64,000 nt of DNA, from assembly GCA_037200985.1 (NCBI GenBank), contig JBBCGJ010000001.1:620001-684000 (forward strand). Reading direction: 5' to 3'. This document shows, piece by piece, positions 19,332-54,439 of this stretch. The notes beneath the pieces are model-generated. The model was not told where the DNA came from and did not search any database. It was given only the letters and a program-made list of their open reading frames with translations. The stretch comes from Rhizomicrobium sp. (GTDB lineage Bacteria; Pseudomonadota; Alphaproteobacteria; Micropepsales; Micropepsaceae). Position 1 is the stretch's first letter. Every line of letters begins with the position of its first letter. The translations under genes were made by a program, and so were the position numbers.

Positions 19332-22223
19332 ATGAAGATGCAGTACAGCCCGATCGGCAAGCTCTATCGCTTGCTCACCACGCAGCCGGCGCCTGTTCTC
19401 CTCTTGGGGGCAGGTGCTTCGGTGAAGTCGGGCGTTCCGCTTGCCGGGCAGATGGTCGAACGCGCGGCCCGTTGGGCGTACGCCAATGCTCATGGCCGGT
19501 CTCCGGACGATCCGCGGCTGCTGCGCAGCGACTGGATGCCGTGGCTGGAAGATCAAGCCTGGTATAAAAAAGACGCGCCGCCCTACGACAACTACCCCGC
19601 CGCCGTGGAGAATCTACTCCAGCCGCGACAGGCACGGGCCGACTTCTTCCGCCAGCTGCTCATGACGGGGATTGCCCCCAGCCCAGGATACGAGACGCTC
19701 GCCGAATTCATGGCGCAGGGTCTGGTACCCGTCGTGCTCACGACCAATTTCGACACGCTCCTTCCCGAGGTCAGGGTTCTCAAACGCCGTCCTCACTATA
19801 TCGATGTGATCCAAACCCCATCCGACTATGTGAAGTTTTCCACGACACCGCAGTACCCACTGCTCGTGTACGCGCACGGCTCGGTCGACCACTATACCGA
19901 TAAGAACCGCGAGAACGAGGTGCAAAGGCTCGACGATGACTTGGTCGTCAAGCTAATCCCGCTGCTGCGCGACCGTCCCCTTATCGTTGTGGGCTATCGC
20001 GGTGCGGAAGCATCCGTAATGAAGCACCTCCTTCTCGATAACACCGACCAAGCGAACGCCTACAGACATGGCATTTTCTGGTGCAAGCTGAAGAATGAGC
20101 GGGAGGACGATCTCTCGCCCATGGTCAAGGAACTGGCTACGCGAATCAGTGGCAATTTCAGCTTGGTCGATATAGACGGCTTCGACGAACTGTTCAGCCG
20201 GGATCTCTGGCAGCTGCATTTGGACGCCGGCGCCGCGTCGGGGACGGTCTCGGCGCCCGCGACCGCGCTTGCGCCGACCTTCGACATGGCGCCGACGGGT
20301 TCCACCCAACTCGACGGACTCGACTGGCCGACACTGCGGCCCCGCCTTCAGAAGTATTGCTCCGAGCTGCAGATCAAGGTGCCTGCCGACCCGGACGACA
20401 ACTGGTACGCAGATCAGCTCTTCCAGGCCAATCTTGCGCTAAGGCTCGAAGACCGGTCGGTGCGCGCAACGCGCGCCGGTTGCTTGCTGTTTGGCTTGGC
20501 ACCGCAGACCGAGGTGCCAGGTGCCAAAGTGCTCATTCGTGCGGCCGGCAATGTCGATTGGATCGGTGCGGCCCTTGGACAAAAAGCGGGAGAAGTGGAA
20601 GACGCCAAACTCGAGCGGGTGATCGAGGGTAATCTGTGGGCGCAATACGACACGGTGATGGGCCTTCTCGGATCGTTCAATCGACCGTTCCGATTGAAGG
20701 GTGCAACATCGGAGACCGTGACGCCCTATCCGCCCCTTGCCATCAAAGAGGTGGTCGTCAACGCGCTTGTCCATCGCGACTACGGTGCCGAGGGCATGAT
20801 CGTGGTGGATCTTGAGCCGGGATCGATCCGGATTACCAACCCAGGTGGTCTGGTCGAGGAAGTCCAGCGACGGGTCGGCGACTCCATCGAAAGCGAGATC
20901 AGGAAGGGGCGACGCGGGATCAAAGGATATCGCAACCCCGTCATCGCCGACCTGTTCTACGGCAGTGGCGAAATGGACAAGCGCGGATCGGGACTGTCGG
21001 ACGTTTACCGCACCGTGCGTGACGCCGGTGGTGACGTGACTTTCGGTCCTGCGGAGGACAATTCAGCCTTCTCAGTCCAGCTGTTCTCGCGCCCGGAAGC
21101 CGTGGATCAAACCACCGGTACTGCTTTGCCGACGGTTTTGACCTCCACGACCTACGCCGGAAATGCCCTGGAAGTTGTGGAGCTGCCCAAGACGCTCTTT
21201 CATGGCCACACCGAGATCGAATGGGTCGGCGAGATATGGCGGCGGCTGCCGAACCAGTTCATTCCACCCTTCCTATTGCATGAACACAAGATTTTCACGT
21301 TCCATGACCTGGACGATGAGGCCAATCCCCTGCGGTCGTTGGTCGACCCAGGAACGATTGAACCGATCGCCACGAGCGAATTCTTCCAGGGCGCCGACGG
21401 CGAACGCCTGCTCGTCCGCATCTTAAACGACAGCCTGCGCAAGCATCTCTATTCCCGCGGACTCATCGTCGATAACAAGCGCAAGCGCGCCTATTTTTCG
21501 AGAACGCCGCAGGGTGTCCGCACCATCTCGTATCAAGGTCGGCTCCGGCGGGCGCGAAGAACCGTCGTGAAGGCACGAACATCGCCCGCCACGGGCAAGA
21601 TAACGTATTGGGAACATGAAGCCCTTGGCTATCAATTCCTCAAATTCGGAAACACTTGGGCGTTGATGCTCGAGCCGGGCTACGTGTTCACCTTTGATGG
21701 CAAGAAGGGGCTCCTGGCGCCCGAAAAGATAAATAAGCTCTCTACGAAACGGGCGTCGCGGGACTACAACAGTGCTGTGCTCAACGACCTGTCGTTCTGG
21801 ACATGGCTTATCGCCGGTGGAACTTCTCCGATTTTTTCATTCAACGTCTGCGGCGAACACCTTCCCATTGTCGCTGATCTCGAAGAAGAGCCTGCCGCAG
21901 AACCTGATCGACGGCCAGCCGAGCACGAAGACGAGCGCTGGGACGTTGTCGCGATCGATCGGGCGCAGCGTGCGTCGCAGTTCACCTCATTCCAGACTGA
22001 ACCCGGTACTCTGTTCGAACGACCTCCCGTGATCGCGCTCATGGCGAATCTACCGACCATAACGATCAACGACATGAACCTTGCGCCAGAGGACGGCTCA
22101 GACCTTCTGGAGGAGAGCGATGACCTGGAGGAACTGGAGGAGGAGCTTGAACAACTAGCCGAGGAGGGACGCCAAGAATCGGAAGCGGCGGCGCGCGATG
22201 GGGATACCGGCGATGGCGCTTAA
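19332..22223 (+). CDS. SIR2 / RecG-like ATPase / APAZ fusion, partner of short Argonaute
   Basis: A 963-aa three-part protein. Residues about 20-300 are a SIR2-like NADase domain: GAGAS (26-30), TTNFD with Asn139, AHGS with His182 and VVGYRG (219-224); the catalytic Asn and His are kept. Residues about 350-590 match the COG2865/RecG-like ATP-binding region: RAGCLLFG, IKEVVVNALVHRDY with Asn477, TNPGGL, YRNPVIADLFY and RGSGLSDVYR. The rest, ending in a very acidic tail, sits where the APAZ domain of short-Ago partners is found. The Argonaute gene overlaps its 3' end. By analogy with SIR2-APAZ/Ago systems it would degrade NAD+ when the complex detects invader DNA. The ATPase insert makes it nearly twice the usual length. 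Confidence 0.85.
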   Translation: MKMQYSPIGKLYRLLTTQPAPVLLLGAGASVKSGVPLAGQMVERAARWAYANAHGRSPDDPRLLRSDWMPWLEDQAWYKKDAPPYDNYPAAVENLLQPRQARADFFRQLLMTGIAPSPGYETLAEFMAQGLVPVVLTTNFDTLLPEVRVLKRRPHYIDVIQTPSDYVKFSTTPQYPLLVYAHGSVDHYTDKNRENEVQRLDDDLVVKLIPLLRDRPLIVVGYRGAEASVMKHLLLDNTDQANAYRHGIFWCKLKNEREDDLSPMVKELATRISGNFSLVDIDGFDELFSRDLWQLHLDAGAASGTVSAPATALAPTFDMAPTGSTQLDGLDWPTLRPRLQKYCSELQIKVPADPDDNWYADQLFQANLALRLEDRSVRATRAGCLLFGLAPQTEVPGAKVLIRAAGNVDWIGAALGQKAGEVEDAKLERVIEGNLWAQYDTVMGLLGSFNRPFRLKGATSETVTPYPPLAIKEVVVNALVHRDYGAEGMIVVDLEPGSIRITNPGGLVEEVQRRVGDSIESEIRKGRRGIKGYRNPVIADLFYGSGEMDKRGSGLSDVYRTVRDAGGDVTFGPAEDNSAFSVQLFSRPEAVDQTTGTALPTVLTSTTYAGNALEVVELPKTLFHGHTEIEWVGEIWRRLPNQFIPPFLLHEHKIFTFHDLDDEANPLRSLVDPGTIEPIATSEFFQGADGERLLVRILNDSLRKHLYSRGLIVDNKRKRAYFSRTPQGVRTISYQGRLRRARRTVVKARTSPATGKITYWEHEALGYQFLKFGNTWALMLEPGYVFTFDGKKGLLAPEKINKLSTKRASRDYNSAVLNDLSFWTWLIAGGTSPIFSFNVCGEHLPIVADLEEEPAAEPDRRPAEHEDERWDVVAIDRAQRASQFTSFQTEPGTLFERPPVIALMANLPTITINDMNLAPEDGSDLLEESDDLEELEEELEQLAEEGRQESEAAARDGDTGDGA

Positions 22224-23709
22224 GTTCGAACTTCTGGAGTTTCCGCCGCCCGGGCTCGAATTTGGCGGGTCGGGTGAATTCGAAGACCCACGCTTGGGGC
22301 TGACCGCGGGCGGACCCTTTGACCTTCGGTTTGGTGCGGCGCGCTCTGAACGTGTCTGTGTCGGTGTTGTCGGTCCCGTCGACATGATAGAGGCCGCTCG
22401 CGCGTGGCTCATCCGCATTCAAGGAGAGTTGCACGATCCTCCTACCGTACAGGCTTATCCGCCTTACCCGGGATTCCAGCACATTTTTCGTTCGAAGCTG
22501 AGCGTCGCCGAAAATTGGACGATCTTGCTTGACGAGATGCAGCTGGCCGCTGCGTTGGCGAACTCCAACGTCAGCCAGCGATTTGACCGTGTCCTGGATC
22601 TCTATGCAGCCGGTATCCAACACCTGGCGACCTCCGAAACGGTGCGCCCTGATGTCGTGATGTGCTGCCTTCCTGATGAGGTTCTTCTCAAGTGCCGCTC
22701 GGTGACAAAGACGATTACGAAAGCGGAAAAAAGAGAGGTTGAAGCGCTGAAAAAGCGCAAGGCTAGCCTCCAATATGAATTGTTCGAGTCGGTCGCCATC
22801 GACGAGCCCGAACCAGAAGACTTGTTGTTTCGAGATTTTCGTCGCGCCCTGAAGGCGCGTGCGATGCAGGCCGGTATGCCCATTCAGATCGCCACCAACC
22901 GTCTGTTGATTGACGCCAAGGCATCCCAAGGACCATCGACCCGTGCGTGGAACAGCTCGGTCGGCCTCTATTACAAAGCCGGCGGCATCCCGTGGCGCTT
23001 GAAGAGCAACGGGCCGGAGACGTGCTTCGTTGGTATCAGCTTCAATCACGTGCGCACTACGGAGCGGCATGTCGTGAAATCGAGCCTGGCGCAGGCTTTT
23101 TCAAGCCAGGGGGAAGGATTTGCGCTGCGCGGTGGAGACATAGAGTGGACCGAAGAGCAGGGGCGCACTGTTCACCTGACGGGCGACCAGGCGTTTCAGC
23201 TGGGCCGGCAAATCTTGGCCGAGTATGAAGAACGCGTAGGCGGCGTGCCGCTTCGCATTGTGATGCACAAATCGTCGAAGTTTTCGGAAGCAGAGTCGGA
23301 AGGCTTTCGATCGGCGCTCGTCGCCGTGCCGCTCGTCGAGCTGATCAATATTATGCCCACAACCTTTCGGCTCGTTCGCTTTGGATCTTACCCACCCAAT
23401 AGAGGAACCCTCTGCCGGGTGAATGGCAGTTCGGCATATCTGTTCACGACGGGTTACATGCCGGAACTGAGCACCTATCCCGGTCCTCACATCCCGGCGC
23501 CGGTGCAAATTCGCAGCGACCAACCGATCGAAATCGAACGCGCAGCACGCGACATCCTGGGCCTGGCCCGCATGAATTGGAACACCGCCAGCATAACGGG
23601 CGGTCAACCGGTGACGCTGAGTTTTGCGCGCCAGGTCGGCGGTATCATGGCCGAATACGCGCGAATTGACGATCGTCGGCCGCTCGCATCGTTCCGCTTC
23701 TACATGTAA
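22198..23709 (+). CDS. Short prokaryotic Argonaute (MID-PIWI, inactive PIWI)
   Basis: A 503-aa protein of short-pAgo size, lacking N and PAZ domains. The start LEFGGSGEFEDPRLGL, the strand DVVMCCLPDE and the stretch AWNSSVGLYYKAGGIPWRL are characteristic of short pAgos. The PIWI strand FVGISFNH has Ser where an active slicer has Asp, and the later MHKSSKF also lacks the acidic residue, so target cleavage is not expected. Short pAgos use a guide to find target nucleic acid and trigger the effector, here the SIR2 protein encoded just upstream. ATG 22198 overlaps that gene by 26 bases; ATG 22213 is an alternative start. Confidence 0.9.
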   Translation: MGIPAMALKFELLEFPPPGLEFGGSGEFEDPRLGLTAGGPFDLRFGAARSERVCVGVVGPVDMIEAARAWLIRIQGELHDPPTVQAYPPYPGFQHIFRSKLSVAENWTILLDEMQLAAALANSNVSQRFDRVLDLYAAGIQHLATSETVRPDVVMCCLPDEVLLKCRSVTKTITKAEKREVEALKKRKASLQYELFESVAIDEPEPEDLLFRDFRRALKARAMQAGMPIQIATNRLLIDAKASQGPSTRAWNSSVGLYYKAGGIPWRLKSNGPETCFVGISFNHVRTTERHVVKSSLAQAFSSQGEGFALRGGDIEWTEEQGRTVHLTGDQAFQLGRQILAEYEERVGGVPLRIVMHKSSKFSEAESEGFRSALVAVPLVELINIMPTTFRLVRFGSYPPNRGTLCRVNGSSAYLFTTGYMPELSTYPGPHIPAPVQIRSDQPIEIERAARDILGLARMNWNTASITGGQPVTLSFARQVGGIMAEYARIDDRRPLASFRFYM

Positions 23710-30032: not shown

Positions 30033-30175
30033 CGGCGATACCGGTTAAAGCCGCTGCAATTTACGCTCCGGCTGGGTCCGCGTGAAACCCGAAGAATATA
30101 CCGAACCGGTATGTCCACATGAAAGGTGGCGGCGCGTCCTGAATCGGGCGGCGATTCGCCGTATTGTCCCGCCCG

Positions 30176-31270
30176 ATGACGATCGACCGCTACGCCCGTG
30201 AGCGACAGATTGCGCTGGCGCGCGAGATGGCGCCGCGTGCCAAGATCTACCTCGATTTGCGCTTTTGGATATTGGCGCGCGAAGCCGCGGCCGGGAACGG
30301 CACTCCGGCAGACATCAGGATTCTAGAAGCCTTGCGACACGGCGTACGGGCCGGCGTACTGCTTTGTCCCGTCTCCGAAAGCGTCGTCATGGAGCTCTTG
30401 AAGCAGGCCAACACGGCCGCGCGGCGCCAAGCGACCGCCACGCTGATCGATGAGCTCAGTCTTGGCGTGTGCCTCGTCCCGATCGATGTTCGCGCCAAAA
30501 CGGAGGTCGCGCATTTTTGGCATGCGTTGTCCAGCGCGTCCGAGCTTTATCCCGTCTCGGAACTGATCTGGTCCAAGCTCGCCTATGCTTTCGGGTACTT
30601 GCATCCGCAGATTGCGGGATGGACGCCGGAGCAAGAGCTCGCGTTCCAAAAGGATTTTCTCGACAAGATGTGGGACAAACCACTTGTCGAAATGGCGACG
30701 GCAATTGGCGACACGGGTTGGGAACAACGCGAGGACTTCGAGCGCTTGGCACGAGCCCTGAATCAAGGCAACGCGGATCATCTCCGCGACATCCGCGACT
30801 TCAAACAGACCTATCAACTCGAACTCAAAGGCGTGATCGATCTCTACGGCGATGTTGCCGCCGATGTCGTGTGCGACATGGCCGTTGCGAATAATGTCGC
30901 TCCACCACGGCGTGGCTCATCCGAATGGAAAGCCACGGCGAATGCCTGCAAGAATGTGCTGTTCGCTGGTTTTGCGCAGGAGCGCACCCGGACCGCGCTT
31001 CGGACGGTCCACATCCAGACCTGCCTGCATGCCGATCTGCGGCTGAACAAGCGCCGAAAATTCGTGGCAAACGACTTCTATGACTTCAATCACGCCGCCG
31101 CTGCGCTCGGCTATTGCGACGCATTCTTCACCGAGGGGTCGCTCCGTGCGATGGTGACGGCAAAGCATGTGGCCCTCGACAAGCGATACGGTTGTCGCGT
31201 CACGGACGATGTGGAGGAAGCGGCCCAAATCCTGGAGGCGATTGTCGCCGGTCGTGAAACCGCCGGCTAG
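30176..31270 (+). CDS. PIN-like domain protein
   Basis: A 364-aa protein. KIYLDLRFWILA at the N terminus, VSESVVMELL in the next helix and NDFYDFNHAAAALGYCDAFF near the C terminus place Asp, Glu and Asp residues as in PIN-fold ribonucleases, where the last segment usually carries the third acidic residue before CDAFFTE. The central part (about residues 80-270) is a helical insertion. ATG 30176 is preferred to TTG 30164. An RNase effector paired with the divergent 549-aa protein is a reasonable hypothesis, not shown. Confidence 0.6.
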   Translation: MTIDRYARERQIALAREMAPRAKIYLDLRFWILAREAAAGNGTPADIRILEALRHGVRAGVLLCPVSESVVMELLKQANTAARRQATATLIDELSLGVCLVPIDVRAKTEVAHFWHALSSASELYPVSELIWSKLAYAFGYLHPQIAGWTPEQELAFQKDFLDKMWDKPLVEMATAIGDTGWEQREDFERLARALNQGNADHLRDIRDFKQTYQLELKGVIDLYGDVAADVVCDMAVANNVAPPRRGSSEWKATANACKNVLFAGFAQERTRTALRTVHIQTCLHADLRLNKRRKFVANDFYDFNHAAAALGYCDAFFTEGSLRAMVTAKHVALDKRYGCRVTDDVEEAAQILEAIVAGRETAG

Positions 31271-34424: not shown

Positions 34425-34599
34425 CCATCGCAGATCATCGCAAGTGAGCGCAGATGAAAGGTCCGATCATGAATTGGAGCGCGGTAGGGCAAGATAAAGG
34501 ACGGCACCATCGGCGCCTAAGTCGTTGTCTGCACGTCCAAATGCACGGTGCCAGCGCGTTTGCGCCGGCACCAATGCGGCACCAGGCGCACGCAGCGCC

Positions 34600-36591
34600 A
34601 TGGTTGCGCGGATCGGTGCCGGCGTGAGCGCCGACGACGAGTTCGAGCCGAAGCTCGGTCGAATCCGGCATGGCGGGAGCAAGACCGGCCGGCGCTTTTT
34701 GCAGCGCGTGCTGCAGTCGGCAGCCTTGGCGGGACGATCGGCCGGCAAGGGCAAGACGTTCCATGGCAATCGCATCGGCCGTGGCTCCGGCGTCGGGCGC
34801 GTCCTGGCGTCGCGGGATAAATACGCCGCCTTTCGGCAGCGGCGGGTCATCGTCAAATCCCGCGTCGTCAAGCTCCGGGGCGCCGGGCTCAGGGCCGCCC
34901 AGCAGCACTTGCGCTATATCCAGCGCGATGGCGTGACGCGGGACGGCGAACCGGGCCGGGCCTACGACGCCGCGAACGACCGCGCCGAGACGAAGCCGTT
35001 TCTGGACCGCAGCGAGGGCGATCGCCACCAGTTTCGCATCATCGTCTCGGCCGAAGACGGGGCGGCGTATGACGACCTCAAGCCGGTAACGCGGCGGCTG
35101 ATGCAGCAGATGGAGGAAGACCTCGGAACCAAACTCGACTGGGTTGCGGTCGATCACTTCAACACCGGCCACCCGCATACCCACATCGTCCTGCGCGGCA
35201 AGGATGACCGCGGACAGGACCTCGTCATCGCGCGCGACTACATGGCGGACGGCATGCGGGAGCGCGCCGCCGAAATCGTCTCGCTTGACCTGGGACCGAA
35301 GTCGGACCGCGACGTGGAAGACCGGCTGCGAGGCGAAGTGGAGCAAGAGCGGTTCACCAGTCTCGACCGCGATCTGCTGCGGCGGTCGGGGGACGACGGC
35401 GTTGTTGCGTTCGGGGAGACTGAACGCGACGCATTCCGGCAGACGCTCAGGACCGGGCGGTTGCAGAAGTTGACGCGGCTCGGCTTGGCGGACCAGATCG
35501 GTCCGGGCCGTTGGCAATTGGCGACGGAGATGGAACCGACGCTGCGGCGCATGGGCGAGCGCGGCGACATCATCAAGACGCTGCATCGCGAATTGCAGGC
35601 CGCGGGTATGGCCCGCGCCATGTCCGACTATGCGATCTTCGATCCGGGCGCGGCGCAGGCCAAACCCGTGCTTGGCCGGATTGCCGGGCGCGGTCTGTCG
35701 GACGAACTCAACGACCGCCATTATCTGATCGTCGACGGCGTGGACGGCCGCGCTCACTATGTCGAGATCGGGGAGGTCCATGAGGACCTTGCCTTGGGAT
35801 CGATCGTCCGGGTGACGGGCCGTCCTGCCGAACCGCGCGAGGTGGACCGCACGGTGGCGCGGATTGCCGAGCGGAATGCCGGCCGCTACAGCGCGGAGCT
35901 GCACCATCGCGCCGACCCGGCGGCCTCGCCGGCGTTCGTGGCGGCGCATGTTCGGCGGCTGGAGGCCATGCGGCGGCTCGCCGGCGCCGCCGCCCGCGAA
36001 CCGGATGGCGTTTGGCGGATCGCGCCCGACCATCTGGCGCGGGCGTCGGCCTTTGAACAGAGCCAGGCCGGCAAGTCGCCTGTCATCGTCGAAACGCTCT
36101 CGCGGTTGTCATTGGAGCAGCAGATCGGCACCGAAGGGGCAACCTGGTTGGACCGCACCTTGACGAACGGCGGAGGCCCGGCGTTCCGCGACGCGGGGTT
36201 CGGGCGCGAGGCGAATTCGGCTCTGGCGCGGCGGCGGCAATGGCTGATGGAGCAAGGGTTTGGCGATACGGCCGTAGAGGGCGCCGTCAGCCGGCCCGAC
36301 ATGCTGGCCGCTCTGACTCGCCGTGAGCTCGCCAAGACCGGCTTGCAAATCGCCCGCGACAGCGGGCTCACCTATGTCGAGGCGGGCAAGACGATCGAGG
36401 GCGTCTATCGGCGCGCGGTCGATCTCGCCAGCGGCCGCTTCGCCGTGATCGAGAAGAGCCGCGAATTCACGCTGGTCCCGTGGCGGCCGGCCCTGGATCG
36501 GCAGCTTGGCAAGCCGGTGAGCGGTATCGCCCGGGGTGACACGATTTCTTGGTCGATGGGAAGGCAGCGTGGCGGACCTGGGGTATCGTGA
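34600..36591 (+). CDS. Relaxase (VirD2-like with DUF3363)
   Basis: A protein of 663 aa from ATG 34600; GTG 34624 is an equally good start and gives the family-like N terminus SADDEFEPKLGRIR. The histidine motif HPHTHIVLRG (near residue 191), with upstream DWVAVDHFNTG, forms the metal site; this enzyme nicks oriT and pilots the DNA strand. The large C-terminal part is DUF3363, typical of relaxases in Tn4371-like and alphaproteobacterial elements. oriT was not identified but should be nearby. TraG, its coupling protein, is downstream beyond one inserted gene. Confidence 0.85.
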   Translation: MVARIGAGVSADDEFEPKLGRIRHGGSKTGRRFLQRVLQSAALAGRSAGKGKTFHGNRIGRGSGVGRVLASRDKYAAFRQRRVIVKSRVVKLRGAGLRAAQQHLRYIQRDGVTRDGEPGRAYDAANDRAETKPFLDRSEGDRHQFRIIVSAEDGAAYDDLKPVTRRLMQQMEEDLGTKLDWVAVDHFNTGHPHTHIVLRGKDDRGQDLVIARDYMADGMRERAAEIVSLDLGPKSDRDVEDRLRGEVEQERFTSLDRDLLRRSGDDGVVAFGETERDAFRQTLRTGRLQKLTRLGLADQIGPGRWQLATEMEPTLRRMGERGDIIKTLHRELQAAGMARAMSDYAIFDPGAAQAKPVLGRIAGRGLSDELNDRHYLIVDGVDGRAHYVEIGEVHEDLALGSIVRVTGRPAEPREVDRTVARIAERNAGRYSAELHHRADPAASPAFVAAHVRRLEAMRRLAGAAAREPDGVWRIAPDHLARASAFEQSQAGKSPVIVETLSRLSLEQQIGTEGATWLDRTLTNGGGPAFRDAGFGREANSALARRRQWLMEQGFGDTAVEGAVSRPDMLAALTRRELAKTGLQIARDSGLTYVEAGKTIEGVYRRAVDLASGRFAVIEKSREFTLVPWRPALDRQLGKPVSGIARGDTISWSMGRQRGGPGVS

Positions 36592-36675
36592 CCATACCTT
36601 TTGCGGTCATGTAATTGAGCGATCTTCGCGGTAATATTGCCCCGCAACTAGCCGAGCAGAGAACACCAGTCGGAC

Positions 36676-38529
36676 ATGCCGAATTTCATTCAGACAATCC
36701 GCCTGCCGGGGACAAAAGATGTTCTTGATCTGGCATACCCCGATCTGGACGGCCGCAACGCCATCAACGTTGTTTGTGGCTCGAACAATTCGGGCAAATC
36801 ATATCTTCTTGAGCGAACGCGGCAGTTCCTGGAAAAGGGAACGCAAAGCAAGCCGCCGGCTGTCACGCATCAAATTGGAATCGCGCTAACGGAGCCCAAG
36901 TCGCCACCGCCCAGCTGCCAGTTTTTCGGCAAGAGCTGGCTGCGTAAGGAGCAACTCAAGACAATTGCCTATCAAAGACAACATCGTCGACCACATTCGA
37001 GCGATGTCCTCGACTATGCTTCGGCATCTCTCACCATTCTATATTTTCTCGTCGCAGATAGTTTCGCGCAAGGCAACGCCGTTCCGCTTTCCAAATGGTT
37101 GGATGATCACGAACTGCGGACACGGACCATCGGCGGCTTTCCGGTTGATGAAGAAAAGTTGCACAGGGGTCGGAGCACCGACACGCTGATGATGGAATTT
37201 GAATCCATTGTCGGTGGGCGGCTTTACTTTCGGCGTGCACAAGAGAACACCGTGGACCTGGTTCTAGCTTATGGCGATGGAACGACAGCGCACTTCGAGG
37301 AATGGAGTGACGGTCAGAAAAATATCCTTCTGATCATGGCCCTCATACAGCAGGCGGCCACACAGGTTGTCCTGCTCGATGAAATAGAGAATCACTTTCA
37401 CCCGAAGTACATCACGCTGGTGCTGGACTATCTTCGCCGAAATGTTCCGCAGTCGATCGTGACGACGCATCACCCACATGTGATATTTAGTGAGCTTGTG
37501 GACCGCGTGTTCTATCTTGAGGCGACGCGCCCGCCATTCCCGGAGGGCGACCCGCCTCTTGAGCTGCGTCATCTCAAGCAGCCTGCGCAGCAAGCTCCAT
37601 CGCGAAGCATGCATCGCCTTATAGACTCATTTGGGAAAGTCACGGCCATCTATCGGCTGTTTCACGATCAAGACCGACAGCTGATCAAGCAGGCGCAGCA
37701 AATCCGCGGTGACGCCGATATCATTTTCCATACGGCTCTCACACGGATCTTCTTGCAGGACATTGTGCCGGCGAAGGGCGGTCCTCTGCCGGACCGACAG
37801 TCTCAGCAGTTGCTTACGGTGCTACGGGACGAATTTCACGCGCTCGCTGGAAGACCTGTTCGCTTACTCGAGATCGGTTCTGGACTCGGCCGTATTCCAG
37901 CGGACATGAACAAATTATCTCCCGATCAAGTCGGCCCGAGCGTAGATTGGCAGTGTTGGGAACCGAACGTTGGGGTTCGTGCTCGCCTGCGCGAGGAAAT
38001 TCGCCAGAAACACATTCGGGCTACGGTGTTAGAGAAATTGGACGCCGCCACAGGATACTTCGATGTCTGTTTGGTCGCTAACGTATGCCATGAGCTAACA
38101 CCTGAGCAATTTATCGACGTGCTGTCTGTTGTGACAAGTCGGCTTCGCGTCTCTGAAGGTTTATTGTTGGTTCAGGAGCTATATCCCCTCTTGAATGCCG
38201 AGAAATTCGCGGTGCCTTACTCGGCCGATCACATGGCCCGCATCGTCACCGCGTGTGGGTTTGCTGTCCATTCGTTGCAGTTTCCCGTCCGGGATGCCTC
38301 GGCATATTGCATCGTCGGGCGAAAGACCGTTGACCAGCCGGACATTCGCACGACAGCGGCTACGGCGATCTCCGCTGCCTGGAATGAAATCGAGAGGGCC
38401 GCCATCGACAGTTACGCGTCGAGGTCGGGGGTTTCTAGTTACGAAGGATATAGCAGCGCAGTCCAGGACATGACCACGATTGCCAGCATAGCGGCTTGGA
38501 GGAAGGGGCGGTGGACGGCGAGTCCTTAA
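36676..38529 (+). CDS. AAA ATPase fused to a SAM-dependent methyltransferase-like domain
   Basis: A 617-aa two-domain protein. Residues about 1-290 are an ABC/OLD-type AAA ATPase: Walker A GSNNSGKS (35-42), signature-like EEWSDGQK (near 211), Walker B VVLLDEIENHFHP (Asp235/Glu236) and the His switch TTHHPHV. Residues about 330-560 look like a class I methyltransferase: RLLEIGSGLGRI (Glu399), CWEPN and FDVCLVANVCHELTPEQ. I do not know an established family with this fusion. It stands alone between relaxase and traG, with sequence less GC-biased than its neighbours, so it is probably cargo, perhaps an anti-phage gene. Confidence 0.75.
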   Translation: MPNFIQTIRLPGTKDVLDLAYPDLDGRNAINVVCGSNNSGKSYLLERTRQFLEKGTQSKPPAVTHQIGIALTEPKSPPPSCQFFGKSWLRKEQLKTIAYQRQHRRPHSSDVLDYASASLTILYFLVADSFAQGNAVPLSKWLDDHELRTRTIGGFPVDEEKLHRGRSTDTLMMEFESIVGGRLYFRRAQENTVDLVLAYGDGTTAHFEEWSDGQKNILLIMALIQQAATQVVLLDEIENHFHPKYITLVLDYLRRNVPQSIVTTHHPHVIFSELVDRVFYLEATRPPFPEGDPPLELRHLKQPAQQAPSRSMHRLIDSFGKVTAIYRLFHDQDRQLIKQAQQIRGDADIIFHTALTRIFLQDIVPAKGGPLPDRQSQQLLTVLRDEFHALAGRPVRLLEIGSGLGRIPADMNKLSPDQVGPSVDWQCWEPNVGVRARLREEIRQKHIRATVLEKLDAATGYFDVCLVANVCHELTPEQFIDVLSVVTSRLRVSEGLLLVQELYPLLNAEKFAVPYSADHMARIVTACGFAVHSLQFPVRDASAYCIVGRKTVDQPDIRTTAATAISAAWNEIERAAIDSYASRSGVSSYEGYSSAVQDMTTIASIAAWRKGRWTASP

Positions 38530-38680
38530 CACCACCAGGACTGACCGCTGCGAAACACGGTGCCGTCAGAATTATCCGAATCTCATAGCCTCATCTACGA
38601 CAGCGAAGATCGGCGTAGATAAAGGCGATTTTCATTTTGTGATTTTTCCGCGACTCCTGATTCGCCAGGAGATAGATCGC

Positions 38681-40717
38681 GTGACGCCAACCAAATTCCT
38701 CATCGGTCAAATCACGGTCGTTTTCGCCGTCGCCGTCGGCGGGATGTGGTTCGCTACGGAGTGGGCAGCGTGGCGCCTCGGCTATCAGCCGCAGCTCGGA
38801 TTGCCCTGGTTCGTCCTAGCCGGTCGGCCGATCTATCACCCCTGGTGTTTGTTCGTCTGGTGGTATGCCTACGACGCATATGCGCCGAGACTCTTCAACG
38901 AAGCTGGCGCGATCGCGGCCACCAGCGGTTTCGCCGGCTGTGCCGTCGCGATCATCGGCTCCCTGTGGCGCGCGCGGCAGACCCAACACGTTACGACGTA
39001 TGGCTCGTCGCGCTGGGCCACCAGCCGTGAAATCCGCAGTGCCGGGCTCTTTCGGCCTTCGGGCGTGTTTCTCGGCCAGCTGGGCACCGACTATCTGCGC
39101 CACGACGGCCCCGAGCATGTGATGGCCTTCGCGCCCACGCGCTCCGGAAAGGGCGTCGGCCTGGTCGTTCCGACCCTGTTGTCCTGGACTCAGAGCGTCG
39201 TCATCCACGACATCAAAGGTGAGAACTGGCAACTCACGGCCGGTTGGCGCAGCCGCTTCTCCTATTGCCTTCTGTTCAATCCGACCGACGCTCGCAGTGC
39301 CCGCTACAATCCGTTGCTCGAAGTGCGCAAGGGCCCGGATGAAGTCCGCGATGTGCAGAATATCGCCGACATTCTGGTCGATCCCGAAGGTGCGCTTGAG
39401 CGGCGGTCGCATTGGGAGAAGACCAGCCACTCGCTGCTTGTCGGCACGATCCTGCATATCCTGTATGCGGAAGAGGAAAAAACCCTTGCGCGCGTCGCGA
39501 GCTTCCTGTCAGACCCCAAGCGGTCGTTCGAGCACACGCTGCGGGCGATGATGGCGACAAACCACATCGGCACGCCCAAAGCGCCGATCGTCCATCCCGT
39601 GGTCGCGTCCGCGGCGCGCGAAGTGCTCAATAAGTCCGAGAATGAGCGCTCCGGCGTGCTGTCGACCGCCATGTCGTTCCTCGGCCTGTACCGCGATCCG
39701 ACCGTCGCCAGAGCGACGGCGGCTTGCGATTGGCGCATCGCCGATTTGGTCGATGCCGCACGGCCGGTCTCCCTCTATCTGGTCATACCGCCGTCCGACA
39801 TCTCGCGAACCAAGCCGCTCGTTCGGCTGGTCCTCAATCAGATAGGCCGGCGGCTGACCGAGCGCCTGGAGGGCGATCCGAGCAAGAGCCGCAAGCACAA
39901 GCTACTGATGATGCTCGACGAATTTCCCGCACTTGGCCGGCTCGATTTCTTCGAGACCGCGCTCGCCTTCATGGCCGGATATGGAATCCGCGCCTATCTC
40001 ATCGCGCAATCGCTCAATCAGATCTCGAAGGCCTATGGCGAGAACAACGCCATCCTCGACAATTGCCATGTGCGCATCGCGTTTTCGTCCAACGACGAAC
40101 GTACCGCCAAACGGATCTCGGATGCTTTGGGCACGGCGACCGAATTGCGGGCCCAGAAGAACTATGCCGGACATCGTCTTTCGCCCTGGCTATCCCATGT
40201 GATGATCAGCCGGCAGGAGACGGCGCGCCCGCTCCTCACGCCGGGCGAAGTCATGCAGCTGCCGCCGGATGACGAGCTGGTCCTGGTGTCCAGCCTAGCG
40301 CCGATCCGCGCCCAGAAGCTGCGCTACTACCAAGACCAAAACTTCATCACCCGCGTGACCCCGGCACCTGTCCTAGCGGAGGGCGCCTTCCGGGATGCCC
40401 CGGAGCCGCGCCCGAACGATTGGAGCGGGCAGGTGCGGGGTCTCCATCAGGAACTGGCAGCCGCATTGGGCGGCGAGTTCTCGTCTGCCGAGGACGAGGG
40501 CGGATTGCAGTTGCAGCGACATCCTGGGCTCGGCGAGCAACAGGACGGTCAGCGTAACGATCAAGACATGGGCGTCTCCGCCGAAAGCGATGACGAGACG
40601 GACTCGCAGACTGTCTCGATTAGCCAGGGCGGTCTGAAGCCGCTCGGCCGGGCGCACGCCATCAACGAGGGCGAACACCGGCACGGTGCCGATGACGACC
40701 TTATCCCGGCGTTCTGA
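38681..40717 (+). CDS. traG: Type IV coupling protein TraG/VirD4
   Basis: A 678-aa membrane ATPase that connects the relaxosome to the mating channel. Two N-terminal transmembrane regions precede Walker A APTRSGKGVGLVVP and Walker B LLMMLDEFPALGRL; the pair GYGIRAYLIAQSLNQI is also typical. GTG 38681 is chosen because AGGAG lies about nine bases upstream and the product begins TPTKFLIGQI like other TraG proteins; an upstream GTG at 38639 is less likely. A CopG gene and the trb operon follow. Confidence 0.93.
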   Translation: MTPTKFLIGQITVVFAVAVGGMWFATEWAAWRLGYQPQLGLPWFVLAGRPIYHPWCLFVWWYAYDAYAPRLFNEAGAIAATSGFAGCAVAIIGSLWRARQTQHVTTYGSSRWATSREIRSAGLFRPSGVFLGQLGTDYLRHDGPEHVMAFAPTRSGKGVGLVVPTLLSWTQSVVIHDIKGENWQLTAGWRSRFSYCLLFNPTDARSARYNPLLEVRKGPDEVRDVQNIADILVDPEGALERRSHWEKTSHSLLVGTILHILYAEEEKTLARVASFLSDPKRSFEHTLRAMMATNHIGTPKAPIVHPVVASAAREVLNKSENERSGVLSTAMSFLGLYRDPTVARATAACDWRIADLVDAARPVSLYLVIPPSDISRTKPLVRLVLNQIGRRLTERLEGDPSKSRKHKLLMMLDEFPALGRLDFFETALAFMAGYGIRAYLIAQSLNQISKAYGENNAILDNCHVRIAFSSNDERTAKRISDALGTATELRAQKNYAGHRLSPWLSHVMISRQETARPLLTPGEVMQLPPDDELVLVSSLAPIRAQKLRYYQDQNFITRVTPAPVLAEGAFRDAPEPRPNDWSGQVRGLHQELAAALGGEFSSAEDEGGLQLQRHPGLGEQQDGQRNDQDMGVSAESDDETDSQTVSISQGGLKPLGRAHAINEGEHRHGADDDLIPAF

Positions 40718-51293: not shown

Positions 51294-52679
51294 GTGGCAA
51301 AACGAATCCCGGACGAAGATCTGCTGGCGATCGAGTCGGTCCTGCGGCGCCATCCGGGCGGTGCGTCAGCCCAGCAAATCCAGGCCGAACTCAGCCCTCA
51401 AACGCCCCAGCGAACCCTGCAATACCGGCTCCGGTATCTGACCACTCATGGCCGCGTAGTGCGGGACGGCGACGGCCGCTGGGCCAAATATCACCTGCCG
51501 GTAGCCGCGCCGAACGCCGCTGATCCGACGGACCGAGACGATGCGATCATAACGGTCTCGGAGGCCGGCAGGGATATACGGGACTATATGCGCCCGCCGC
51601 CGGAGGCACGCAAACCAGCCGGCTACAATCGCCACTTTCTCGATGCCTATCGCCCGAACGTCACCGCCTATCTGTCGGCGGCAGAACGCGCGCATCTGGC
51701 ACAGGTGGGAGGCGCGGATGTCCGTGAGCAACCAGCCGGCACCTACGCCAAACATATTCTGAATCGGCTTCTGATCGATCTGGCGTGGAATTCGAGCCGG
51801 CTCGAAGGCAACACCTATTCGCTGCTCGATACCAAACGCCTCATCGAACTGGGAGAGGAAGCACAGGGGCGCGAGCATCTCGAAGCCCAGATGATCCTGA
51901 ACCACAAGGATGCGATCGAATTCCTGGTCGGCAGCGCCGAGGAGATCGGCTTCAATCGCTATACGATGCTCAATCTCCATGCGCTGCTGGCGAATAATCT
52001 GCTGGCGGACCCAGCAGCGGCGGGCAGGCTTCGGCACATCGCGGTCGGCATCGAACGATCCGCATTCCATCCGCTCGAGGTGCCGCAGCTGATCGCCGAA
52101 TGTTTCGATCAGATTCTCGCCACGGCGGCCGCGATCAAAGATCCGTTCGAGCAGGCGTTCTTCGTCATGGTGCAGCTTCCCTATCTTCAACCCTTCGACG
52201 ACGTGAACAAACGCGTGTCGCGCCTCGCGGCCAATATTCCGCTGATCAAAGGCAACCTCTCACCGCTGTCTTTTGTCGACGTTCCCCGGGCGACCTACAC
52301 CGAGGCGGTGCTCGGCGTGTACGAGTTGAACAAGGTCGATCTTCTGAAAGATGTGTTCGTATGGGCCTATGAGCGCTCGGCAGCGCGCTACGCCGCGGTC
52401 CGCCAATCGCTGGGGGAACCTGATCCCTTTCTGCTGCGTCATCGCACTCATTTGCGCGAAGTCATCGGCGAGATCATCCGCAGCCGCATGAACAGAAAAG
52501 ATGCTGTCGCCCATATCGCTGCCTGGTCCAGGAACAAGATCGCTCCCGCGGACCGGTCGCGCTTCACCGAGGCGGCGGAGAGGGAATTGACGAGCCTGCA
52601 CGAGGGAAATTTTGCGCGGTATCAGATTCGGCCGTCCGAGTTCGCCGCATGGCAGGAGATTTGGGGAGGAGCGCGATGA
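51294..52679 (+). CDS. Fic family protein with N-terminal winged helix
   Basis: A 461-aa protein. Residues about 1-65 look like a winged helix (LLAIESVLRRHPGGASAQQI, LQYRLRYLTTHGRVVRDG). An inhibitory-type helix SSRLEGN (Glu171) precedes the Fic core, whose motif is LQPFDDVNKRVSR (Gln299): the catalytic His of HPFx(D/E)GN(G/K)R is Gln. I recall the PFDDVNKR form as a known Fic subgroup, so AMP transfer is doubtful and a regulatory role is possible. GTG 51294 follows the repeat array. ATGA overlap with the next gene indicates an operon with the Gabija-like pair. Confidence 0.85.
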   Translation: MAKRIPDEDLLAIESVLRRHPGGASAQQIQAELSPQTPQRTLQYRLRYLTTHGRVVRDGDGRWAKYHLPVAAPNAADPTDRDDAIITVSEAGRDIRDYMRPPPEARKPAGYNRHFLDAYRPNVTAYLSAAERAHLAQVGGADVREQPAGTYAKHILNRLLIDLAWNSSRLEGNTYSLLDTKRLIELGEEAQGREHLEAQMILNHKDAIEFLVGSAEEIGFNRYTMLNLHALLANNLLADPAAAGRLRHIAVGIERSAFHPLEVPQLIAECFDQILATAAAIKDPFEQAFFVMVQLPYLQPFDDVNKRVSRLAANIPLIKGNLSPLSFVDVPRATYTEAVLGVYELNKVDLLKDVFVWAYERSAARYAAVRQSLGEPDPFLLRHRTHLREVIGEIIRSRMNRKDAVAHIAAWSRNKIAPADRSRFTEAAERELTSLHEGNFARYQIRPSEFAAWQEIWGGAR

Positions 52680-54439
52680 GCGCACCTGGATCACCAGCTT
52701 CGGCGCCTGCGATCTATCGCTTCTCGATCGAGCGCTTTCGAGGAATCAAATCGCTCGTCTGGCAGCCGGCAAAGGGTGTCAACGTCATTCTTGGCGGCGG
52801 CGACGTTGGCAAGACGACCATCCTGGACGCAATCGGCCTGCTGCTCAGCCCCGTCAACCCGGCTAATCTTGCCGATACCGACTATCACGCGCGCGACATC
52901 GCGGCGGGCTTTTTGATCGAGGCGGTCATCTCTCTGCCGCCAGGCAGCGGCATCAGCGATCAGTTCAAGCCGTCTTGGCCGTGGGAGTGGAATGGTACGG
53001 ACGTCTCGGTTCCGAGCACCGACGACGACGGCAACCCTCCCGGCGATCCGGTATATCGCGTGCGCGTGCGGGGCACCGAGGATCTGGAGCTCATTTACGA
53101 GATCGTGCAACCCGATGGCTCGACCGACGGCTTCCCGGTTGGGTTGCGCCGTTCGATCGGGCTGGTGCGACTGAGTGGCGATGACCGAAACGACCGTGAC
53201 TTGCGGCTCGTGCAAGGCTCGGCACTCGACCGGCTGCTCTCCGACAAAGGCCTGCGTTCGCGCATGGCGAGCGAGTTGGCTAAAAGCGATGTGAAGAGTG
53301 AACTGACGGATGGCGCGAAGAAGGCGCTCGAAGATCTCGACGCGGCCTTCAAGGCCAAGAGCCTACCGGCCGGACTCGATCTCGCCATCACTGGCGGGCA
53401 GGGTCCCTCCATTGCATCGTTAGTCGGCCTGACAGCAGACCGCGACGGCACGCCTCTGCCGCTCGCAAGCTGGGGCGCAGGAACGCGTCGGCTCTCCGCT
53501 CTCGCGATTGCCGAACAGAACCAGGGCGAGGCACCGATCACGATCGTTGACGAAGTCGAACGTGGGCTCGAGCCTTATCGCCAGCGAACGCTCATGGACA
53601 AGCTGCAGGCCGCCAAGTCGCAGGTATTCGTCACAACGCACAGCCCGGCAGCAATCTCAGCCGTGTCCGAGGCGGGCGTTTGGTATGTCGATCCTGCAGG
53701 TAGGATCGGGGCGCTCGATGCCCTCAAGATTGCGCGACATCGCAAAGTCGATCCCGAGACGTTTCTGGCGCGTTTTGCGGTTGTCGCCGAAGGCGCGACG
53801 GAAGCCGGCCTGACCGCATCTTTGCTGGAGCGGGCGCTGGGCGCGGCGCTGGAACAACACGGCGTGCATGTCACGGATGGCGGCGGGCACGAAAACACGT
53901 TGGGCCTGCTCGAAGCGCTGGCCGCGGGCGGGCTTCGCTTTGGTGGGTTCGTCGACGACGAAGCCAAGCATCCGGAGCGCTGGGCGAAGCTCGCCGCGAA
54001 GCTCGACAAGCTGCTCTTCCGTTGGCCTTCGCTTTGCACCGAAAACAATGTGATCGCGACCATACCGGACGACAAATTGGAAGCACTGATCATCGATCCG
54101 AAGAACGAGAAGACCGGCATGCGTTGCCGGACACTGTCCGAGCGTCTGGGCATCGCGGACAAGGATTTCGCGGCGCTCAAGGCAAAAGCGGGAGACGGCT
54201 TCCGGGCGCTCATCATCGAGGCCGCACGGGGCTCGGTGCCGCCCGGCAAGGAAAGCGAGAATAAACAGTACAAGGCGCATGCCGGGACATGGTTCAAATC
54301 GATGGAGGGTGGGCGCGAACTCGCAGGCAAAATTTTCAGCCTCGGCGCCTGGCCGGTCTTGAAGCCGCAACTGCTGCCGTTCTGCAACGCAGTCCGGAAG
54401 GCGATCGACCTGCCGGACGTCGCGGACTTGCCGCCTTGA
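52676..54439 (+). CDS. GajA-like OLD family ATPase with TOPRIM nuclease domain
   Basis: A 587-aa protein. The N-terminal ATPase has Walker A GGGDVGKTT (40-48), signature SWGAGTRRL and Walker B TIVDEVERGLEP (Asp292/Glu293), then FVTTHSPAA. The C-terminal TOPRIM has Glu372 in VVAEGATEAG and the acidic pair Asp427/Asp428 in FGGFVDDEAKH. Size and layout match GajA of Gabija, a nucleotide-sensing DNA nickase active against phage. ATG 52676 overlaps the Fic stop; its own stop overlaps the helicase start. Confidence 0.88.
   Translation: MSAPGSPASAPAIYRFSIERFRGIKSLVWQPAKGVNVILGGGDVGKTTILDAIGLLLSPVNPANLADTDYHARDIAAGFLIEAVISLPPGSGISDQFKPSWPWEWNGTDVSVPSTDDDGNPPGDPVYRVRVRGTEDLELIYEIVQPDGSTDGFPVGLRRSIGLVRLSGDDRNDRDLRLVQGSALDRLLSDKGLRSRMASELAKSDVKSELTDGAKKALEDLDAAFKAKSLPAGLDLAITGGQGPSIASLVGLTADRDGTPLPLASWGAGTRRLSALAIAEQNQGEAPITIVDEVERGLEPYRQRTLMDKLQAAKSQVFVTTHSPAAISAVSEAGVWYVDPAGRIGALDALKIARHRKVDPETFLARFAVVAEGATEAGLTASLLERALGAALEQHGVHVTDGGGHENTLGLLEALAAGGLRFGGFVDDEAKHPERWAKLAAKLDKLLFRWPSLCTENNVIATIPDDKLEALIIDPKNEKTGMRCRTLSERLGIADKDFAALKAKAGDGFRALIIEAARGSVPPGKESENKQYKAHAGTWFKSMEGGRELAGKIFSLGAWPVLKPQLLPFCNAVRKAIDLPDVADLPP

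Follow-up and report, generated by a model that had tools for sequence, protein, structure and literature searches.

A 64,000-nt stretch of DNA from Rhizomicrobium sp. (GenBank assembly GCA_037200985.1, contig JBBCGJ010000001.1, positions 620,001 to 684,000 of the forward strand) was analyzed and is termed the window here. Among its conjugative transfer genes lies an open reading frame at 36676-38529 (+) that starts with ATG, contains no internal stops and encodes a 617-aa protein, in which a full ABC/AAA_21 ATPase is joined to a class I SAM methyltransferase (MTase). A previous reading of this DNA, made from the sequence alone, had proposed a single-gene ATPase-MTase fusion of this length, and the intact reading frame and co-linear relatives bear this out. 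All the motifs quoted in the sequence-only reading were present: GSNNSGKS (residues 35-42), EEWSDGQK (208-215), LLDEIENH (233-240), LLEIGSGLG (397-405) and ANVCHELTPEQ (468-478). The features of the locus are as follows.

34525-36591 (+), upstream flank: VirD2-family relaxase, start codon uncertain
36592-38561 (no strand), cargo insert containing the fusion gene only, from blastn against ten congeneric elements
36676-38529 (+), ATPase-MTase fusion gene (P0001), 617 aa, with ten homologues
36676-37665 (+), ABC/AAA_21 ATPase half, residues 1-330, matching Pfam AAA_21 and nearest to PtuA/AriA
36778-36801 (+), Walker A GSNNSGKS, residues 35-42; G35, N37, G40 and K41 invariant in 10 members
37297-37320 (+), ABC signature EEWSDGQK, residues 208-215; W210, S211, G213 and Q214 invariant
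37372-37404 (+), Walker B and D-loop region LLDEIENHFHP, residues 233-243; D235, E236, E238, H242 and P243 invariant
37468-37479 (+), H-loop HHPH, residues 265-268; H265, H266, P267 and H268 invariant
37735-38331 (+), class I SAM MTase domain, residues 354-552, well modelled and structurally close to OxaG and SgvM
37864-37893 (+), SAM-binding motif I LLEIGSGLGR, residues 397-406; G401, G403 and R406 invariant in 10 members
38077-38106 (+), post-beta4 motif ANVCHELTPE, residues 468-477; N469, V470, H472 and P476 invariant
38089-38091 (+), putative catalytic base His472, from profile alignment with His278 of 1fp1
38176-38217 (+), family hallmark after beta5, ELYPLLNAEKFAVP, residues 501-514; E501, P504, L505, L506, E509, A512 and P514 invariant, partly by construction, since a loosened ELYPLL motif was the search pattern that found those members
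38344-38502 (+), C-terminal helical tail, residues 557-609, two helices in the model; weakly conserved and absent where records or genes are cut
38639-40717 (+), downstream flank: TraG/VirD4 coupling protein, start codon uncertain

Homology of the window to ten congeneric elements stopped at approximately 36496-36591 (in most cases at 36578-36591, the relaxase ending at 36591) and restarted on the right between 38562 (L081) and 38682 (L089), leaving an insert of about 2 kb between the relaxase and traG genes in which the fusion is the sole gene. The same relaxase and traG genes, with 66-81% DNA identity, were detected in the congeneric genomes, and in L089 the two adjoin with almost nothing between them, confirming an earlier suggestion that the fusion interrupts the relaxase-traG order. 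A proposed difference in composition was also upheld, the fusion gene having a GC content of 0.549 and a GC3 of 0.607 versus 0.63-0.69 and 0.77-0.83 for the flanking transfer genes; this lower GC content fits a recent arrival. The inserts between relaxase and traG in the congeners (L081-L090) ranged from about 0.1 to 12.6 kb and had the following contents.

L081: class 1 DISARM, with a DNA MTase, DrmA, DrmB and DrmC
L082: type IIG RM, a HEPN/RES protein and PDC-S51
L083: AraC/GNAT-type genes
L084: a NERD-domain protein
L085 and L087: RND metal-efflux operons, by sequence reading
L086: two small uncharacterised genes
L088: an HNH protein and an AbiJ_NTD4/Abi_C-like protein, just under the Pfam cut-off
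L089 and L090: almost nothing

In this family of elements, the space between relaxase and traG is a hotspot for cargo, and the fusion is, as had been supposed, cargo of a conjugative element, alone in its insert. Defence or defence-like genes were detected at 4 of the 10 congeneric sites, so the position favours a defence function; it does not prove one, as putative RND efflux operons and metabolic genes are inserted at the same site.

Other candidate defence genes were present elsewhere in the window. At 19332-23709 (+), a 963-aa SIR2 protein (PADLOC Aga_SIR2-PNTD1-PNTD2, 1212 bits) precedes a short prokaryotic Argonaute of 503 aa (pAgo_I, 476 bits), and these two genes are, on their model matches, a SPARSA-like defence pair. 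Beyond the transfer genes, at 51294-54439 (+), a gene for a Fic/DOC-domain protein overlaps that of a 596-aa GajA-like OLD-type ATPase (PADLOC GajA, 1.6e-71).

The N-terminal half of the fusion matched two Pfam families above the cut-off, AAA_21 (2.1e-14) and AAA_15 (6.4e-10), with AAA_21 exceeding its gathering score. As Walker A, signature, Walker B and H-loop are all in place, the ATPase is complete, in agreement with the previous reading, and the invariance of all four motif sets identifies the protein, at the level of sequence, as an ABC/AAA_21 ATPase. The best PADLOC match was AriA (7.2e-17), accompanied by PtuA (3e-12) and a weak match to MAD3 (6.5e-13). PtuA also provided the top PDB profile matches, and VIA comparison of the N-terminal half with retron-Ec83 PtuA gave Z scores of 15.1 (276 residues, rmsd 5.2; 9e90) and 15.0 (254 residues, rmsd 3.9). 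This likeness to PtuA and AriA is restricted mostly to the nucleotide-binding core. Among the NCBIfam and PADLOC matches, no model spanned the whole protein, the best covering the ATPase core of AriA, PtuA or MAD3, and the NCBIfam PtuA score of 27.3 bits was below the cut-off of 500. ABC-F ribosome-protection models matched 8 of the 10 members about as well as PtuA did; only one Walker A/signature/Walker B set is present, however, and the tandem ABC pair of ABC-F proteins is missing. No TOPRIM domain was detected in a Pfam scan of the window protein and its relatives, the C-terminal half folding instead as an MTase. Hence, the term OLD-like, as initially applied to this ATPase, was a loose label: by profile and fold, the nearest relatives are PtuA of retrons and Septu and AriA of PARIS rather than the TOPRIM-bearing OLD proteins, and the fusion is not an OLD protein minus its TOPRIM domain.

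Assignment of the C-terminal half was based on profiles and a structural model. Methyltransf_12 was below threshold in the window protein (E = 0.066) and matched 7 of the 10 members, with a best value of 2.3e-7, while Methyltransf_2 (PF00891) matched 5 of the 10 members (best 8.9e-4), the window protein not being among them. Modelling of the MTase half alone without an alignment gave a pLDDT of 42, which was useless, and a full-length AlphaFold2 model built from a nine-row alignment was therefore used. This model was moderate as a whole (mean pLDDT, 73; pTM, 0.48) and did not place the domains reliably relative to each other; within it, the MTase domain had pLDDT values mostly of 80-92. VIA comparison of residues 354-552 gave Z scores of 15.6 for OxaG and SgvM, 15.3 for METTL6 and 15.0 for Coq5. 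These results indicated a class I MTase fold for the C-terminal half, as had been proposed, and its membership of the class I SAM-dependent MTase superfamily; the proposal thus withstood the refuting condition set with it, a C-terminal half with some other fold.

The nearest folds and profiles were those of O-, N- and C-methyltransferases of small molecules or of METTL-type enzymes. In the profile alignment with plant-type O-methyltransferases, H472 is placed on His278 of the chalcone/isoliquiritigenin OMT (1fp1), which we take to be the catalytic base of that enzyme. H472 is invariant in 10 members and occupies the His position after beta4 of the COMT-type (PF00891) enzymes. The [DNS]PP[YFW] motif of DNA MTases is missing after beta4, where the window protein has NVCHELTP and all members have NVxHxxxP, and no PADLOC DNA-MTase model was among the best 25 matches. 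The fold and this one residue point to an MTase of the small-molecule/O-methyltransferase type, for which the most likely substrate would be a small molecule, or else a macromolecule methylated on a hydroxyl or similar group. This probable type and the absent DNA-MTase motif make it unlikely that the modification system suggested as one possibility in the sequence-only reading is a DNA modification system.

In order to determine the distribution of the fusion, several collections were searched. A tblastn search of 72,556 plasmids with the whole protein detected only two full-length fusions, with 29% and 25% identity. Alignment of these two homologues with the window protein yielded an MTase-half motif, E-[LI]-[YF]-P-L-L-x2-E-x2-A-V-P, and a loosened ELYPLL motif, converted to a degenerate DNA pattern and run on 84,980 species genomes, detected 40 loci. 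A profile check confirmed 8 of these, the already known plasmid copy not being counted: Ruegeria (frameshifted), Sphingomonas soli, Altericroceibacterium, an Acidobacteriota MAG, two Pseudoalteromonas, Mucilaginibacter and a Cytophagales MAG. The ten further members thus obtained are from the Alphaproteobacteria, Pseudoalteromonas (Gammaproteobacteria), an Acidobacteriota MAG and the Bacteroidota, i.e., three phyla. They are full length or nearly so, share 24-34% identity with the window protein (the closest, at 34%, being the Acidobacteriota member) and have both halves in the same order, except in copies truncated by a contig end or frameshift. In one such copy, from Ruegeria sp. XHP0148 (L049 4441-6292), a frameshift generates frames of 450 and 216 aa beside intact neighbours, due either to decay or to an assembly error.

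Walker A, W-S-x-G-Q, Walker B, HHPH, GxGxGR, NVxHxxxP and ELYPLL were invariant or nearly so in the ten-member alignment. Comparison of the two Pseudoalteromonas copies gave dN/dS values of 0.069 for the ATPase and 0.057 for the MTase, indicative of purifying selection and, hence, of use of both halves. The MTase half was not found without the ATPase in 299 genomes, where only the window's own fusion was detected. A protein search of 50,697 phage records revealed no fusion homologues, and no relative was detected by single-sequence peptide-pattern scans of genome and viral contigs or by a three-sequence alignment against viral contigs. Among 385 genomes of the class, 398 of the phylum and 96 of the family, only the window's own copy was observed, indicating that the family is rare. 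The fusion is, nevertheless, a rare conserved family and not an accident of one genome. Pfam, PADLOC, NCBIfam and the literature searched contained no name for or description of it, as the previous reading had anticipated, although a mention in a classification of ABC ATPases is possible.

The genes surrounding the other copies were compared by all-against-all blastp, with approximately 10 kb to either side where the records allowed. No gene partner was common to divergent members, and genes were shared only between close relatives of one element; this search for the fusion and its neighbours, which had been recommended at the outset, therefore yielded ten co-linear homologues with no conserved neighbour among the divergent ones, and argues for a one-gene system. 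On the Allorhizobium plasmid, the neighbours of the copy include a nucleotidyltransferase/HNH pair, SIR2, DarT and an ABC three-component system (ABC-3C). The Acidobacteriota copy has a Schlafen-AlbA_2 protein within 20 bp downstream and a 700-aa HATPase protein nearby (L065 7679-8947 and 12289-14391), in a locus that also contains TrbI- and TrbL-like genes. Both of these copies are in defence-like islands. The Ruegeria and Pseudohalocynthiibacter copies are on one common element, with the fusion located between traG-side cargo and virB11. The Pseudoalteromonas copies are surrounded by ordinary chromosomal genes, with what reads as a GNAT-like gene close downstream and a VOC-like gene also near, and one Bacteroidota copy is likewise among ordinary chromosomal genes.

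A QueC/OGG/PfkB cluster was considered as a partner and rejected, as it was present only beside the Ruegeria and Pseudohalocynthiibacter copies. This cluster (L068 10821-15166 and L069 13754-18099) adjoins the fusion on the mobile element and encodes an OGG-like glycosylase, a PfkB/nucleoside deoxyribosyltransferase fusion, QueC, an uncharacterised protein and a VUT-family transporter; it could constitute a system of its own, deazaguanine-related or like type IV CBASS. In the window, a 368-aa protein without a Pfam match, encoded at 30164-31270 (+), has a homologue (27% identity, 1.7e-28) about 5.6 kb from the Mucilaginibacter fusion (L063 10634-11683).

Several known systems resemble parts of the fusion. 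In PARIS, phage proteins are sensed by the ATPase AriA, which sets free the TOPRIM tRNase AriB; the two are also found fused in one polypeptide (PMC12409363). Septu has PtuA as its regulatory ATPase, and a PtuA-like ATPase with other partners has been proposed (PMC11980606). Class 1 OLD proteins are single-gene systems in which the same kind of ATPase is joined to a C-terminal TOPRIM domain (PMC10568477). The fusion shares an ABC-type ATPase core, its best structural match, with PtuA of Septu and of retrons Ec78 and Ec83, but carries its MTase in cis and has no neighbouring HNH gene, whereas Septu has a separate HNH protein, PtuB. With PARIS, which contains the best PADLOC match and also has one-polypeptide forms, it would share an ATPase sensor plus effector; the PARIS effector, separate or fused, is however a TOPRIM protein and not an MTase. 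OLD nucleases are similarly single-gene ABC ATPases with a C-terminal catalytic domain but are defined by the TOPRIM domain that the fusion lacks. MADS, matched weakly through MAD3, is a multigene system in contrast to the one gene here. The MTase of MADS is a DNA MTase encoded by a separate gene. The PF00891/COMT-type O-MTases and UbiE-like MTases have the same class I fold and the same His position after beta4; the fusion, however, has no N-terminal dimerisation domain, and its MTase was seen only joined to the ATPase in the sets searched. As the defining feature of each is missing, the fusion is not an OLD nuclease, PtuAB, PARIS, ABC-F or a DNA MTase. It may well work like PtuA or AriA but with a different effector.

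The most likely reading, for which we consider the chances about even, is that the fusion is a stand-alone immunity protein, anti-phage or anti-plasmid, borne by conjugative elements, in which a PtuA/AriA-type sensor would control an MTase effector. The ATPase would dimerise or oligomerise on ATP and serve as both sensor and lock, with the C-terminal MTase taking the place of the nucleases of the related systems (the HNH protein PtuB and the TOPRIM protein AriB). Sensing of an invader would unlock the MTase, which, with His472 as general base, would then methylate a cellular small molecule or macromolecule at a hydroxyl or similar group, and this methylation would halt growth or the invader's replication. 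The absence of a conserved partner and its status as sole gene of the insert suggest that the fusion needs no partner other than, at most, host factors. The effector step would be without precedent, as no known defence system in the literature searched has a small-molecule-type MTase as a toxic effector. A bolder proposal, which we advance tentatively and regard as somewhat more likely to be wrong than right, is that this is a new class of immune protein in which the sensor ATPase directly controls a small-molecule-type MTase, with immunity arising from methylation of a metabolite, signal or translation component and not from cutting of nucleic acids or marking of DNA.

Four other explanations were weighed. 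The MTase fold could be a sensory or regulatory SAM-binding module attached to an active ATPase, such as a factor for translation or DNA remodelling, as might be suggested by the ABC-F matches; this is unlikely given the single ABC domain where ABC-F needs two in tandem, the low dN/dS of the MTase half, and the invariance of His472 and of ELYPLLxxExxAxP (the latter partly due to the search pattern), which is more than SAM binding needs. Resistance or metabolic cargo, i.e., an enzyme under ATP control for inactivation of an antibiotic or for synthesis or modification of a secondary metabolite, would be consistent with an MTase fold resembling those of natural-product O-, N- and C-MTases, with the efflux operons at the hotspot and with the GNAT- and VOC-like genes adjoining the Pseudoalteromonas copies. 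It is nonetheless improbable, as there is neither a conserved biosynthetic or transporter partner nor a second gene in the insert, and PtuA/AriA-type ATPases are not known to occur in resistance or metabolic pathways. Location of four lineages on conjugative elements or plasmids, including the window and the Ruegeria/Pseudohalocynthiibacter element, would fit a factor serving the element itself in conjugation control, entry exclusion or plasmid addiction, but most related elements lack the fusion gene and about half of the members are outside transfer regions, which makes such a role rather doubtful. Marking of DNA for discrimination of self from non-self, as by a compact restriction-modification or BREX/DISARM-like modification factor, is very unlikely: although MTases of defence loci are usually DNA MTases and DISARM and type IIG systems with DNA MTases occupy the hotspot in congeners, the fusion lacks both the [DNS]PP[YFW] motif and a target-recognition domain, its nearest folds and profiles are not those of DNA MTases, no PADLOC DNA-MTase model is among its best 25 matches, and the insert contains no nuclease partner.

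The immunity reading, if correct, bears on a widespread design. ATPases of the PtuA, AriA and OLD type form a common sensor chassis of bacterial immunity, whose effectors, as described in the literature searched, are nucleases. The fusion raises the questions of which substrate is methylated and what acts as the switch, and these are directly testable, since a single gene of about 2 kb that moves as its own cargo can be examined in one cloning step. With an always-fused, conserved version whose O-MTase-like active site is intact, this chassis would gain a new effector chemistry.
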